Virus record (IMG/VR): IMGVR_UViG_3300021959_000103
Span: 1-41,843 of that record
Origin: a virus
Reading direction: 5' to 3' (one strand)
Length of the DNA stretch: 41,843 nucleotides
A program made the translations under genes and the position numbers. The notes beneath the pieces were generated by a model, which worked only from the letters and a program-made list of their open reading frames with translations, was not told the DNA's origin and did not search any database. This document shows, piece by piece, positions 6,689-24,221 of this stretch. Numbering within the stretch: position 1 is the first letter of the stretch; every line of letters starts with the position of its first letter.

Positions 6689-8737
6689 ATGAGAATAGTA
6701 TTAGATGTTGAGAACAGCACAACAAAACGTAATGGCAAAGACCACATGGACCCGTTTGAGATTAACAATCATCTCGTCCAAGTTGGTATGGTTAATGCAG
6801 ACAACCATGATGAACTACACATTGTAAACATAGACCATGACGAAGCAAAGGATACGTCAGGCGCTGGGCATAAGCTAGTGCAGGATATATTAGACTTAAC
6901 AGAGCTTTTAATTATGCACAATGCACAGCACGATATGATGTGGCTGTGGGAGTCAGGCTTCAAATATGATGGCTTGATCTATGACACTATGTTAGCAGAG
7001 TATATACTTGATAGAGGGCAGCGCACACCACTAAGCCTAGGTGCTTGTGCTGAACGCAGAAACCTAGAGGTACAGAAAGATGATACACTTAAAAGATATT
7101 TTAAAGAAGGATACACAACAAATGAAATACCGTTGGACGAGCTTACCTTTTATCTTAGGTGTGACCTGCTCTCTACTAGCTGGTTGTTCCACAGTATCGA
7201 AGCTGACTATGCCAAGCCCGAATCCACAGGTCTCAAAGTCATTAGAGATACAACCTTTACCACCTGTAAAACCCTCACCCGAATGTATATGTCAGGGATC
7301 AGGGTGGATAGATCAGCCCTTGAAGAAGTAAGAGTAGAGTTTGAACAAGAGAAGGCAGAGATTGAAGACAGGATGCAGAAGAAGATACGTAAGCTTATGG
7401 GTGATACACCTATAAACCTTAACAGTCCTGAGCAAATGTCACAGGTTGTATTCTCGCTGCGCATGAATAACAAAAAGGAATGGGCAGATTTGTTTGAGTT
7501 CACGTCTACAGTGGATGAATATAAGGATGCTGTTAGGGCAAACTCTACGCCTGTATACAGAACAAAAGCATTTACATGCCCAACCTGTGAGGGTGTAGGC
7601 AAAACATATAAACTAAAGAAGGATGGCACAAAGTATGCTAGACCTAACAAGTGTAAAGACTGTGACACGCGAGGCTTTCAACTACAAGAAACAAAACAGA
7701 TTGCAGGTCTAAGGTTTACTGCGCCTAATAAGAAATGGATTAGTGCCAATGGTTTTAGTACAGGTAAGGATAACCTAGATGTACTTGCGGCTACTGCCAG
7801 AAGTAATAACATGGAAGAGGCAGAGGCATTTCTTACAGATCAGAAACGTCTGTCTGCTATCAGTAGCTACCTGAGTTCTTTTGTTGAGGGTATATCAAAT
7901 TACACTAAGCATGATGGCTTCTTACATGTAGGCTTAACACAACACATAACAGCTACTGGACGTTTCAGTGGACGTAACCCTAACATGCAGAACATGCCTC
8001 GTGGTGGTACGTTTCCTGTTAAGAAAGTCTTTGTTTCACGGTGGGAAAATGGAAAGATAATGGAAGCTGACTTTGCTCAACTTGAGTTTAGAGTTGCTGC
8101 GTTTCTTGCTCAAGATGAAAAGGCTATGAAAGAAATTAGCACAGGCTTTGATGTGCACAGTTACACAGCAAAAGTTATAACAGATGCAGGTCAGAAAACC
8201 TCAAGGACCTCAGCTAAGGCACATACATTTGCGCCCCTCTTCGGGGCTACAGGATATGGTAGATCTAAGGCTGAAGCCGCTTACTACAAACATTTTATTG
8301 AGAAGTATGAGGGTATTGCTGCATGGCATAAGGAGTTAGGTGACGAGGCATTACGCTTATTGAAGATCACTAATAAGTCAGGGCGACAGTATGCTTTCCC
8401 TAATGTAAGACGCAGAGACAACGGTATGCCAAGTCACTTCACAATGATTAAGAACTACCCAGTACAAGGGTTTGCTACAGGTGATATAGTACCTATTGTG
8501 TTGAACGAGCTTCACGAATTGTTACAACCATACAATTCTGTAGTGGTTAATTCAGTACACGATAGTATGGTAGTTGACATACACCCTGACGAAGAAAAAC
8601 AAGTCATTGATATTATTGAATATCTTAACGACAACATCAATGATCTTGTAGAGAAAACATATAATGTGGTGATGAATGTACCATTACTACTTGAAGCAAA
8701 AATCGGATCAAACTGGCTTGACACAGTTGACGTATAA
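6689..8737 (+). CDS. DNA polymerase, family A, with DnaJ-like zinc knuckle
   Basis: The 682-residue protein has an N-terminal 3'-5' exonuclease domain (Asp6 and Glu8 in LDVEN; HNAQHD; FYLRCD). A zinc knuckle follows at 297-329 (Cys297, Cys300, Cys322, Cys325 in a CxxCxGxG...CxxCxxxG pattern). The palm has motif A Asp461 (EADFAQLEFR), motif B Lys510 (SAKAHTF) and motif C His624-Asp625 (VHDS). The residue equivalent to E. coli 762 is Phe514, and the conserved Tyr766 position is Phe518. The DnaJ-like insert is, from memory, typical of HMO-2011-type phages. The gene lies between helicase and recombination genes. A second frame is embedded at 7122-7331. Confidence 0.93.
   Translation: MRIVLDVENSTTKRNGKDHMDPFEINNHLVQVGMVNADNHDELHIVNIDHDEAKDTSGAGHKLVQDILDLTELLIMHNAQHDMMWLWESGFKYDGLIYDTMLAEYILDRGQRTPLSLGACAERRNLEVQKDDTLKRYFKEGYTTNEIPLDELTFYLRCDLLSTSWLFHSIEADYAKPESTGLKVIRDTTFTTCKTLTRMYMSGIRVDRSALEEVRVEFEQEKAEIEDRMQKKIRKLMGDTPINLNSPEQMSQVVFSLRMNNKKEWADLFEFTSTVDEYKDAVRANSTPVYRTKAFTCPTCEGVGKTYKLKKDGTKYARPNKCKDCDTRGFQLQETKQIAGLRFTAPNKKWISANGFSTGKDNLDVLAATARSNNMEEAEAFLTDQKRLSAISSYLSSFVEGISNYTKHDGFLHVGLTQHITATGRFSGRNPNMQNMPRGGTFPVKKVFVSRWENGKIMEADFAQLEFRVAAFLAQDEKAMKEISTGFDVHSYTAKVITDAGQKTSRTSAKAHTFAPLFGATGYGRSKAEAAYYKHFIEKYEGIAAWHKELGDEALRLLKITNKSGRQYAFPNVRRRDNGMPSHFTMIKNYPVQGFATGDIVPIVLNELHELLQPYNSVVVNSVHDSMVVDIHPDEEKQVIDIIEYLNDNINDLVEKTYNVVMNVPLLLEAKIGSNWLDTVDV
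7122..7331 (+). CDS. possible embedded lipoprotein, Rz1-like outer-membrane spanin
   Basis: A 69-codon frame lies wholly inside the DNA polymerase gene in its +1 frame. It starts at ATG 7122 with AGAAGGA (7105-7111) 10 bases upstream. Residues 2-5 (KYRW) are basic, 6-18 hydrophobic, and 19-22 are a perfect lipobox (LAGC) followed by Ser, which would direct an outer-membrane location. The mature 48 residues hold nine prolines (MPSPNPQ, LPPVKPSP), as in Rz1-type spanins, and two more cysteines (CIC). Rz1 genes are often embedded out of frame, but normally in Rz and not in a polymerase. No partner inner-membrane spanin was recognised. It could be a chance frame. Confidence 0.4.
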   Translation: MKYRWTSLPFILGVTCSLLAGCSTVSKLTMPSPNPQVSKSLEIQPLPPVKPSPECICQGSGWIDQPLKK

Positions 8738-20410: not shown

Positions 20411-20833
20411 CTATTTGGTAAAGCCAGCGCCAAAGTATAGGCCGACTATTGCTGAAACTATGTGTGTGTCTAGTGGGGTTATAACAAAGCCACGAGCTGC
20501 TTTCCAATGTATAGCATCTGGTGCACCTAGTAGCCAGTTGATGAAGCCACCTTGTACTTCTGTATAACCAACGATTACACTTACGTCAGGATACCATACT
20601 GCTACTAGCTTTGGCAACACAATAATAGAGAAGACTGCAGATAAAGCTATGATCCTACGTGTCCATGCAAAGTGCTTATCTGTCTTGCCATGCTCTCTTG
20701 CATCGCTGACTGCCCCTACTAGGGCTTTCTGATGTTCTGCTTTATTCTTATTGCTTTGCCCCCACATGGACATAACTCCACCTAAGACAGTGGAGAAAAG
20801 CATTGTTATTAATTCTAAGGGAAGTCCAAACAT
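20411..20833 (-). CDS. putative holin, three membrane spans, 140 aa
   Basis: Three hydrophobic segments are visible: residues about 3-25 (LPLELITMLFSTVLGGVMSM), 60-80 (RIIALSAVFSIIVLPKLVAVW) and 115-137. A basic and polar loop lies between the first two. The plan matches the 3-TM holins found with gene-transfer-agent and phage lysis genes. Next to it is the LysM/transglycosylase-like gene, with which it shares a TAATG overlap, so lysis is the likely role. It is not proven. Confidence 0.7.
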   Translation of the reverse strand: MFGLPLELITMLFSTVLGGVMSMWGQSNKNKAEHQKALVGAVSDAREHGKTDKHFAWTRRIIALSAVFSIIVLPKLVAVWYPDVSVIVGYTEVQGGFINWLLGAPDAIHWKAARGFVITPLDTHIVSAIVGLYFGAGFTK

Positions 20834-22074
20834 TATGGGAACTCAAACGTTGTTGTATTATCGGATGGTGATTTGTTTAACTGAGATTGGCTTGCTCTAA
20901 ACGCTCTTATTCTAGCCTTCCTCTGCTTCTTAGGGCCACTCCACCAATGATCAGCCCATACATCCTCTATAGATTCTTTACCTGACAGGACTTTACCTAT
21001 ATCTATATCTTTGTGCTGTAACATATCGTACACAGCTAAGGCCATTTGTTGATCCGCTGACAGAGAAACTACCTGACTTGGTAAATCTTTAGATAAATCT
21101 ATATTATCAATCCACTCAGGTACATCTTGACTTAGATCTTTATACTGCCGCCTAGCTCTTATAACTGAGGATTTAAAACGAGCAGGTTCATACTGCATAA
21201 CACCTCTACCAGGACCTCCACCATACTGAGCTAATGTAGGGTCCATTGTGCCAGCAGATTCATGGTAAGCCACAGGCTTAATAACCTTATTGAGTATATC
21301 TTCAGGCTTTGCATTCTTTATATTAGCTGCTATAGCTAAAGCATTTTCTAAACTGTCATCTGTAGGATTTTTTTGTAATGTAGCCTCTGCCATTTTAGTA
21401 TCTTCAACAGTAGGTTCTACCTGAGGTTTAGACATGAGACCTACCTGACCGCCTTTTAGTGTAGAAGTATCCTCTTGATCTACAACAGGTGTCTCTTCTG
21501 TACTTGGTATGTTTATTTTCTGCCCAGGAAAAATCAAATCAGGGTCATCTATCTGTGGATTAGCATCTATCAACTCTTTTAAAGATACATCTTTATCCTT
21601 AGCTATAGCTGTTAGTGTATCTCCAGCCTTAACCTCAACATCATCTACTTCACCTGTATATACTTCTGGCACAGCCATACGAGCCATGTCAGCTGCGATA
21701 GCATCTTCAATATCAACACCACGCAAGTAATCTTCTAGTTCTGTCTGCATCTCTTGCATGTTCTTTTGATCATACAAGTTCATAGGAGTTATTCTAGTTT
21801 CACTATTTTTAGCTAACCTAGCACCAGCATCAGCCAAAGAAGCAGCAGTAGAACTGTACAAGGCAGTTACTGGTGTTAACCTTTTGTCTGAATTGTCATT
21901 GTTATCATTACTAGAATACGTAGGCTTTGGTGCAGAGAAGACTGCAGAACTACCTTTTTTATCTGCTGTACTAGGACGTGAGCCTAGACCTGAGGGTCTC
22001 AGCTTAGGTGTTGGAGTACTACTGGGATTGTAGAAACTCGATACAGCGTTTGGATCATAACCTGGTTCTGGCAT
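20833..22074 (-). CDS. LysM plus lytic transglycosylase-like protein, 413 aa
   Basis: I place the start at ATG 22074, one base after the preceding gene's stop, rather than at 22281, which would overlap by 206 bases. A Pro/Ser-rich N-terminal region is followed by a LysM domain at residues 147-191 (VKAGDTLTAIAKDKDVSLKE...FPGQKINIPS), which binds peptidoglycan. A lysozyme-like domain with probable catalytic Glu272 (AYHESAGTMDP, GRGVMQYEP) comes next. It would cut peptidoglycan at entry or lysis. Its neighbours are internal virion and holin-like genes. Confidence 0.78.
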   Translation of the reverse strand: MPEPGYDPNAVSSFYNPSSTPTPKLRPSGLGSRPSTADKKGSSAVFSAPKPTYSSNDNNDNSDKRLTPVTALYSSTAASLADAGARLAKNSETRITPMNLYDQKNMQEMQTELEDYLRGVDIEDAIAADMARMAVPEVYTGEVDDVEVKAGDTLTAIAKDKDVSLKELIDANPQIDDPDLIFPGQKINIPSTEETPVVDQEDTSTLKGGQVGLMSKPQVEPTVEDTKMAEATLQKNPTDDSLENALAIAANIKNAKPEDILNKVIKPVAYHESAGTMDPTLAQYGGGPGRGVMQYEPARFKSSVIRARRQYKDLSQDVPEWIDNIDLSKDLPSQVVSLSADQQMALAVYDMLQHKDIDIGKVLSGKESIEDVWADHWWSGPKKQRKARIRAFRASQSQLNKSPSDNTTTFEFP

Positions 22075-22075
22075 A

Positions 22076-23962
22076 TTATAACTTTCCGAATAATAGTTTT
22101 GCTGCGTTAGTGGCGATCTCTCCAAGGAACTTTCCTGATGCCGCTGATAGGCCACTAGAGTCAGTGTTGCCCCCAGCAGAAGCACGTGCCTCAGCTTGAA
22201 TCTTAGCAATGGCAATGTTAGCATCCCTTTCAGCAGCGTTTTCACCTGACTGCCAAGCCCAAGCAAGAACGTCACGTTCACGTTGAACCATATTATTATA
22301 TGCAGTCATAGTTAAGTTGTTAGCGGCAAGAGCCGCGTCACGATTAGCTTGGTTGTCAGCTGCGTTTTCAGCTGTTGTTATAGACTGCGCCCACTGAGCG
22401 TTAGCCTGTGCTACAACTAGATGGTTAGTAGCGTTGAACTGATCACGTGCATTCTCTTGATCTGTGTTAAATCTAGATAAAGCATTAGCTTCACCAGCGT
22501 TGAAACGAGACATAGCATTCTTTTGCTCAGAGTTAAACTGTGATACCTGCGTAGCAAGTGTAGCAAAGAATTGATTAGTCTGATTTTCAGATGAAGCGTT
22601 AAACTGTTTAGCTGCATTCTCTTGTGCTGTATCAGACAGAATAGTATTAACACGCTCTTGAGCTTTGAACATGTTTGTCTGTTGCTCATTGCTTAGGTTA
22701 GTCATATCCATCTGTAAGAAAGCTTGAGCATTCTGTAGCTGTGCTTGCTGTCTATTGTTTAGATTAGCCATATCCATCTGAGACATAGCCGCTGCATCAG
22801 CCATAACCTTAGCTTGACGATTACTTAGATTAGCTAGGTTCATAGTCTGAGCCATCTTAGCATTCTCAAGAGCTACCTGCTGTTGTGCTGTAAAGTTCAT
22901 GTTAGCTATCTCAGATACCTTAGCCGCGTTCTGAACCTTAGCTTGGAAGTCTTGAGTAAATTCCATGTTGAGGAAGCCAGCACGTTGACGTGCAGATTCC
23001 ATAGCAACCTCTTGTTTGTTAGATGCATCCATCTGTGCTATAGGTAACGCAGATTCCATAGCCGCTTGTACGATAGCCATACCCGCCATAGATGAAGCAG
23101 ATAAACCTCTAGCTGCCATCCTTGCGGTAGCACCTCTCATAGCTCCTGCCGCCCATGCTGGTGTAGAGCCACCCTCAAAGTCTGCCATTAGGGAAGACAT
23201 CTCGTCCTGAACACTAGCCGCTTCTAGCTTCTCTGTCCCATATATGTCTTGTACTTTTTGTTGATCTACAGATGAACCATCAATAGTCTCGCCTGTCTCA
23301 AGTACACGTGTAGGAGCATTTTCTACTTTAGCTGCCTCACCCTGAGCCGCCTCTAACTTTAGCTGTGCTAACTTTGTAGGATCTCCTGTAGCTGCTGTCA
23401 TAGTAGCTTCGTCACTTACAGTACCTGTAGCTGCGGTAACACCTGCAAGTGCTTTATCTACAGCTGGAGCCGCAGTAGCTGAATCTATAGTAGATACGGG
23501 TGTGGTTGGTGAAGCTACTGCTTCTGGTGCTTGTTCAGCTGTTACATTTGTAGCTGTATTAGCGTCACCTAGTTGACCTGTACCTGTAGCAATCTCTGTA
23601 CCCGTACCAGTATTAGCTACTGTATCGGCTTTGATAGTTAGCTTACGAGGGTCTGTTGTTATAGCAGAAGTCATAGTACTTGCGCCACTATTAACTACAG
23701 TACCTTCATCTGTAGTAGTTTCATCTGTAGTAGTTTCTTCTTCCTCTGTAGTAGTACCACCTTCAGCCATCATCTTAACAGGATTACCTTCTATGGTTCT
23801 CCTAGCCGCTAGTGTGAACTTACCCATTCTAGCCGCCGCCGCAGGGTTGGATGATAGAAAGAGGTTAATAGATTTTTGATCCGTAGGGCCGTTATATCCC
23901 AGCGCTGGTAAAACCTTATTCTTTAATGTTTCAGGCTTAAACCCTACAAACTTTTTTGCCAT
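22076..23962 (-). CDS. internal virion protein with helical repeats, 628 aa
   Basis: The N-terminus (MAKKFVGFKPETLK) leads into a Thr/Ala/Glu-rich low-complexity part (about 65-240). From about 290 there is a long helical region of recurring short units such as QMDMANLNNRQQAQLQNAQ, and SRFNAGEANALSRFNTDQEN, with Asn/Gln/Ala at regular spacing. No enzyme motif is seen. It is probably an ejected internal protein or a coiled-coil part of the tail core. That is inferred from composition and neighbours. Confidence 0.78.
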   Translation of the reverse strand: MAKKFVGFKPETLKNKVLPALGYNGPTDQKSINLFLSSNPAAAARMGKFTLAARRTIEGNPVKMMAEGGTTTEEEETTTDETTTDEGTVVNSGASTMTSAITTDPRKLTIKADTVANTGTGTEIATGTGQLGDANTATNVTAEQAPEAVASPTTPVSTIDSATAAPAVDKALAGVTAATGTVSDEATMTAATGDPTKLAQLKLEAAQGEAAKVENAPTRVLETGETIDGSSVDQQKVQDIYGTEKLEAASVQDEMSSLMADFEGGSTPAWAAGAMRGATARMAARGLSASSMAGMAIVQAAMESALPIAQMDASNKQEVAMESARQRAGFLNMEFTQDFQAKVQNAAKVSEIANMNFTAQQQVALENAKMAQTMNLANLSNRQAKVMADAAAMSQMDMANLNNRQQAQLQNAQAFLQMDMTNLSNEQQTNMFKAQERVNTILSDTAQENAAKQFNASSENQTNQFFATLATQVSQFNSEQKNAMSRFNAGEANALSRFNTDQENARDQFNATNHLVVAQANAQWAQSITTAENAADNQANRDAALAANNLTMTAYNNMVQRERDVLAWAWQSGENAAERDANIAIAKIQAEARASAGGNTDSSGLSAASGKFLGEIATNAAKLLFGKL

Positions 23963-23963
23963 G

Positions 23964-24221
23964 TTATTTATTCCCTAACTGCATCCACACTGCACCAGCG
24001 ATGAATGTTAAAATAGCGATTGTTGTTACCTTGACGAATGTAGACCATATACCTCTACGTGTATCGCGCCATACGTCAAGTAGATCTCTCATATCATTTA
24101 TATCTTTAGCAGCTGTAGCATCGTGTAGGCCAATAGAGGACAGAGCTTGTTTAGCTCCACGCTTAGCTGAACGGTCTAGCATAGATTCTAACTCATCTGG
24201 TGTCAAGTTAATGTCAGCCAT
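23964..24221 (-). CDS. DUF6127-like small membrane protein, 85 aa
   Basis: The pattern 'AKRGAKQALSSIGLHD.TAAKDINDMRDLLDVWRDTRR' followed by one C-terminal membrane span (about 60-82) matches the small phage family DUF6127 as I recall it. Such proteins sit near lysis and structural genes, so a holin-accessory role is possible but unproven. It overlaps its neighbours at TAATG and is one base from the internal virion gene. Confidence 0.75.
   Translation of the reverse strand: MADINLTPDELESMLDRSAKRGAKQALSSIGLHDATAAKDINDMRDLLDVWRDTRRGIWSTFVKVTTIAILTFIAGAVWMQLGNK

Follow-up and report, generated by a model that had tools for sequence, protein, structure and literature searches.

We propose that the DNA polymerase gene of a marine podovirus carries, overprinted in its +1 frame, a lipoprotein gene whose product is an o-spanin or has a very similar role in lysis. 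That the frame is a genuine gene seems to us nearly certain from the comparison of homologous sequences, while the function of the product, including a disruption of the outer membrane at lysis, is inferred, and we give this reading a probability of about 0.6. The window, by which we mean the whole stretch of 41,843 bases that was analysed, is a virus record and apparently a fragment. Its genes identify it as coming from a marine podovirus of the HMO-2011 type, since its polA has a DnaJ-like insert and is best matched by CRP-207, CRP-603, CRP-2 and HMO-2011. The window meets the definition of this phage group, which has been described previously (PMC9038755), in having a polymerase with a partial DnaJ CxxCxGxG domain and a matching gene order. 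The host gene polA (6689-8737, plus strand; Pfam DNA_pol_A, E 2e-49) encodes a family A DNA polymerase of 682 amino acids with a DnaJ-like CxxCxGxG zinc-finger insert, and is 85.6% identical to that of roseophage CRP-207, 71% to those of CRP-603 and CRP-2 and 56% to that of HMO-2011, with CRP-345 also among the best matches. In the window the plus strand carries the replication genes and the minus strand the structural genes.

The overprinted ORF (7122-7331, plus strand) encodes 69 amino acids followed by a stop codon, and its translation is MKYRWTSLPFILGVTCSLLAGCSTVSKLTMPSPNPQVSKSLEIQPLPPVKPSPECICQGSGWIDQPLKK. Its product runs from a basic N-terminus through a hydrophobic core to the lipobox LAGC (7176-7187), with the Cys codon at 7185-7187 and Ser at +2, and then to a predicted periplasmic mature part of 48 residues (7185-7328) that has nine prolines and a C-x-C near the C-terminus and is short and probably disordered. 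The basic N-terminus, the hydrophobic stretch, the lipobox with Ser after the Cys and the nine prolines in 48 residues had been named in the original prediction, made from the window alone, and each was found on translation; the AGAAGGA that it placed 10 bases before the ATG is likewise present at 7105-7111, as a Shine-Dalgarno-like sequence match without experimental data. An alternative in-frame ATG upstream, at 7080 (segment 7080-7124), would give an 83-residue form. Among 118 distinct polymerases that carry the ORF (carriers, defined below), the start codon at this position is ATG in 100 and GTG in one, and the remaining 17 begin at the ATG equivalent to that at 7080, in most cases preceded by GAGGT at a distance of 5 nt. 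When the six frames of the 41.8-kb window were scanned for lipoproteins by strict criteria, this ORF was the only one returned. The ORF was located by tblastn in the cultured phages CRP-207, CRP-2 and CRP-603 (E 1e-11 to 2e-13), and is absent from the annotation of all three records. Across carriers the product is 64-71 residues long, Pro-rich and usually has two periplasmic Cys; the C-x-C is present in most copies and missing in about 11 members of one subclade.

Homologues of the polymerase were taken from IMG/VR and from cultured phages and analysed by codon alignments, trees and comparison with synonymous shuffles. Carriers were picked by the open frame and the Cys only; the lipobox, hydropathy, start codon and proline content were not used. 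Over the ORF, 79 homologues had 0.06 stops per sequence in the +1 frame where synonymous codon shuffling predicted 4.19, and 100 distinct carriers had 0.01 (4.36 expected), while the same region of 84 polymerases outside the clade had 3.45 (4.27 expected). Codons at which a synonymous change can produce a +1 stop were used as stops in 1 of 1128 cases in the 118 carriers, compared with 25-56% in the other parts of polA that were tabulated, and the carriers' tree requires at least 1345 codon changes within the ORF stretch. When the five alternative frames of polA were scanned, windows with zero stops were found in this stretch only. Furthermore, synonymous change at codons 145-213 was 0.67 of that expected (z -11.5, 50 disjoint pairs), compared with 0.97 on both flanks and 0.99 at the same codons in the sister clade. 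The overprinting in polA that had been predicted is thus well established by both the frame and the synonymous tests, the frame being kept in nearly all members of the clade. Other parts of polA are recorded here as separate observations. At codons 486-540 the +1 frame has few stops in both carriers and the sister clade (about 0.1-0.2 where about 1 is expected), which may be due to codon bias or another constraint, and in the HMO-2011/CRP-1 clade synonymous change is about 0.70-0.77 of expected (z about -6) at codons 16-65 and 566-615, which is not seen in carriers.

The sequences further show selection on the +1 frame as a protein with a predicted type II signal peptide, a lipobox and a Pro-rich mature part. 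By sequence rules, the lipobox is conserved in 118/118 carriers, as LVSC, LAGC, LASC and similar variants ending in [GASN]C, compared with 0.05 of synonymous shuffles. Mean hydropathy is 2.06 (-0.16 in shuffles), the first 37 mature residues contain on average 6.6 prolines (1.7 in shuffles), and all signal features occur jointly at a frequency of 1.000, compared with 0.0004 in shuffles. What is expected of an o-spanin is also satisfied, in that the +2 residue is Ser, Thr or Met and never Asp (a rule-based call), and the Pro-rich mature part, of about 43-50 residues, has no TM segment. Since the third base of each polA codon occupies the second position of a +1 codon, it largely sets hydrophobicity. 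In the h-region this base is T at 0.57 (expected 0.38) and A at 0.05 (expected 0.24), and in the mature part it is C at 0.41 (expected 0.23), which is the source of the proline excess; neither shift is found in the sister clade. The lipobox Cys and the C-x-C were dropped as stand-alone evidence, since both largely follow from polymerase codons, the Cys having a frequency of 0.85 in the sister clade and the C-x-C mirroring the polymerase residues M-Y-M. These two features are what could be said for the view that there is no gene and that conservation of the polymerase protein, codon bias or RNA structure merely happens to keep the frame open, but this is very improbable, since stop avoidance and a sharp synonymous constraint are confined to the ORF, base choice spells a hydrophobic core and then prolines, none of this is seen in the sister clade, and together with the feature shuffles it rules out an origin by chance or codon bias.

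A tree built from 242 polymerases places the carriers in a single clade, within which there are several branches without carriers (L048/L197/L198, L297-L313, L265/L331, L041 and L333-L342). The first two are nested among carriers with node supports of about 0.90-0.98. To count L333-L342 as a loss hinges on the weakly placed carrier L271 (support 0.56), and this branch may instead represent ancestral absence. The clade of HMO-2011, CRP-1 and CRP-345 has no such open frame. On this tree, the ORF apparently had one origin and several losses. Homologues that keep the polymerase and lose the frame would have spoken against the original prediction, and they are met in a few lineages only. In 3/3 of the frame-loss lineages with a contig covering the relevant late region, the holin-like gene of the carriers is missing as well.

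This holin-like gene was identified in a genome-wide, ORF-by-ORF comparison between 10 carriers, with long or complete genomes, and 12 non-carriers, in which it and the overprinted ORF were the only families present in 10/10 carriers and 0/12 non-carriers. It encodes a multi-TM protein (20411-20833, minus strand; MFGLPLELI..., PHROG 38283, function unknown), and its function is inferred from topology and position. It abuts the gene of a peptidoglycan hydrolase with LysM (20833-22281, minus strand; LysM E 3e-13, with matches to PHROG transglycosylases/endolysins). The hydrolase ORF as listed begins 206 nt inside the upstream gene and its apparent N-terminal TM falls in the overlap; the true start is likely the Met near 22074 (MPEPGYDPN). 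In the wider set, 17 carrier contigs had the holin-like gene and none of the non-carriers did. The five carrier contigs without it also lack its neighbours, and the non-carriers G012, G024, G050 and G052 have both neighbours and no holin-like gene. The MFGLPLELI family is possibly a new holin family, but the assignment is unproven. A profile comparison with the 3TM protein of HMO-2011 showed no homology, and a different 3TM protein occurs in eight records, all of them non-carriers. Two further observations concern the late region. A DUF6127 protein with a C-terminal TM (23964-24221, minus strand) is present in 10/10 carriers and, among the 12 non-carriers, in CRP-1 only, which makes it a family of weaker co-segregation, and in the 80-kb contig behind L145 (L384-L387) the holin-like and coiled-coil genes are each present in two copies some 55 kb from one another, which resembles a concatemeric or over-extended assembly.

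The remaining lysis genes also differ between the two groups. M15 or GH108 endolysins are found in about 8-9 of the 12 non-carriers (G012, CRP-1, CRP-345, G043, G037, G051, G052, G053 and G036), and none of the ten carriers has a stand-alone endolysin of either kind. A u-spanin-like protein, with a lipobox and a C-terminal TM, is encoded by CRP-1, CRP-345, G028, G044 and G012, all non-carriers, and by no carrier tested; its match to NF037952 (E 3e-14) is below the curated cut-off. L048, whose contig is G012, is nested among carriers and represents a secondary loss of the ORF; the lysis cassette of this contig combines an M15 endolysin with a small coiled-coil membrane protein and the u-spanin. 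Within the clade this is a single clear case of replacement, making the functional argument good but not closed. Since most non-carriers other than these five show no recognisable spanin, the reciprocal pattern of ORF and u-spanin is clear only this once. The ORF comes and goes with lysis genes, and the likeliest role of its product is to break the outer membrane of the host. It could be that the lipoprotein is real and works with the holin-like protein in some other envelope or lysis role, rather than as half of a classical spanin. The fact that these two families alone separate carriers from non-carriers would agree with such a role, as would the lack of a proven classical i-spanin, but we consider it decidedly unlikely, since an o-spanin would be expected to look like the predicted protein and a u-spanin cassette is present in the nested loss lineage.

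If the product is an o-spanin, the following sequence of events may be envisaged. Ribosomes would start inside the polA message by internal initiation, and the product would be lipidated and sorted to the outer membrane, all of these steps being inferred. As the outer-membrane half of the spanin complex it would remain idle until the holin-like protein released the hydrolase and the peptidoglycan was degraded, and it would then, together with an inner-membrane i-spanin, help to fuse the two membranes. Lineages that gained another lysis cassette would no longer need the lipoprotein and the frame would be lost. With polA in the replication module and the late genes on the opposite strand, the timing of expression would be unusual for lysis. 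Early synthesis need not harm the cell, however, since in a published model spanin complexes accumulate in the peptidoglycan meshwork and act only after its removal (PMC6139136). The i-spanin is probably encoded elsewhere, and CRP-603 gp76 and CRP-207 gp73 are among the candidates for it. Coiled-coil proteins with an N-terminal TM, encoded outside the tail module of carriers, are candidates and are found in nine carriers, in two versions, but they are also found in some non-carriers, including u-spanin phages, and were not accepted as clear i-spanins for that reason. The o-spanin function that had been predicted is thus likely, being supported by the co-segregation and by the one u-spanin replacement, but it is still an inference for which no i-spanin partner has been proven.

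The window's copy of the lipoprotein had no family match in PHROGs, Pfam or NCBIfam and no similarity to solved structures in the PDB. The CRP-207 copy weakly matched PHROG 11621 'Rz-like spanin' over residues 6-63 (E 0.004) and another single copy weakly matched PHROG 456, an Rz-like spanin family (E 0.016); these matches are partly driven by the signal peptide and are a lead only. No lipoprotein gene was found outside polA in the window, G004, CRP-2, CRP-603 or G021, and no other convincing hidden lipoprotein was found in non-carriers. Some carriers have a second small unannotated lipoprotein with LLAGC and several Cys (L092, at 52956-53171 on the minus strand of the CRP-207 record, and L104, at 1645-1860 on the plus strand), which resembles part of a neighbouring gene. 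It was found in G001, CRP-207 and G002, with a possible relative in G003, and was rejected as an alternative o-spanin as it is missing in CRP-2, CRP-603, G004 and others.

Two-component spanins have been surveyed and grouped as embedded, overlapped or separated, with unimolecular spanins as a further type (PMC6139136). The ORF matches none of the known o-spanin layouts, whether embedded, overlapping or separated beside the i-spanin gene, since its host gene is a DNA polymerase. This bars it from being filed as a standard o-spanin, but not from working like one. Lambda Rz1 is likewise a small Pro-rich outer-membrane lipoprotein (10 Pro in 40 aa; PMC6139136) whose gene lies in the +1 frame of a longer one, but that longer gene is its partner Rz in the lysis cassette, whereas the ORF lies in an unrelated polymerase gene of the replication module. 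The T4 genes PseT.2/PseT.3 also lie away from the holin and endolysin genes, and their o-spanin has two Cys and their i-spanin none, which is the commonest pairing among systems of which 507/528 have at least one periplasmic Cys in the o- or i-spanin (PMC6139136); they belong, however, to the separated class and are not overprinted. Unimolecular spanins such as T1 gp11 and CRP-345 gp68 (NF037952 spanin2_3-like) are lysis lipoproteins that apparently replace the ORF in relatives and in G012, but they combine the lipobox and a C-terminal TM in one protein. The ORF product has no TM after the lipobox and was rejected as a unimolecular spanin. Lysis by the ssRNA leviviruses differs in depending on a single gene within a tiny RNA genome and on another mechanism, and the proteins are not lipoproteins, nor are these dsDNA phages. 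Their embedded lysis genes nevertheless resemble the ORF in having arisen de novo within other genes of the phage, from which they are read in a different frame (PMC7693330).

The main rival is that the lipoprotein is real but serves to exclude superinfection at an early stage, as T5 Llp does, and would for this purpose occupy the host receptor or some other protein of the outer membrane. T5 Llp is also a small phage-encoded outer-membrane lipoprotein, although its gene is not known to be overprinted and it has no known link to lysis type. An early role would suit a small lipoprotein, usually with a Cys pair, that is encoded in the replication (early/middle) module, and exclusion of superinfection by small lipoproteins of phages is a known phenomenon (PMC9586334). 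Blocking of a receptor does not explain the co-segregation with a late holin-like gene and with lysis type, however, and a mature part selected to be Pro-rich is unlike a compact folded blocker. No family or solved-structure match was found for the ORF product either. We therefore regard this explanation as unlikely, though not to be discarded, and retain the o-spanin as the preferred reading. A bolder form of the o-spanin reading, which we put forward only tentatively and think doubtful as a whole, is that an o-spanin was born de novo by overprinting of a replication gene, has the holin-like MFGLPLELI protein as a non-classical inner-membrane partner and is swapped for a u-spanin upon exchange of the lysis cassette, which would constitute a fourth spanin gene architecture.

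It had been stated in the original prediction that embedded o-spanins are known inside the i-spanin gene but not inside a polymerase, and this agrees with the survey, which describes no o-spanin inside a polymerase gene (PMC6139136); a search of the HMO-2011 and RCA phage literature found no mention of such a gene. The carriers belong to a large group of marine bacteriophages that occurs worldwide and in abundance in the ocean. The tree resolves the case well, with what is apparently a single origin followed by several losses, and there are natural controls as well as cultured carriers in CRP-207, CRP-2 and CRP-603. The case would represent the birth of a gene inside a conserved enzyme, in which synonymous freedom was used to spell a hydrophobic core and prolines. 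In the survey no spanin was found in 91/677 phages, and 196 systems had an o-spanin that was missing from the annotation (PMC6139136). Should the replication module be a place where lysis genes can hide, some phages that apparently lack spanins may have them elsewhere.
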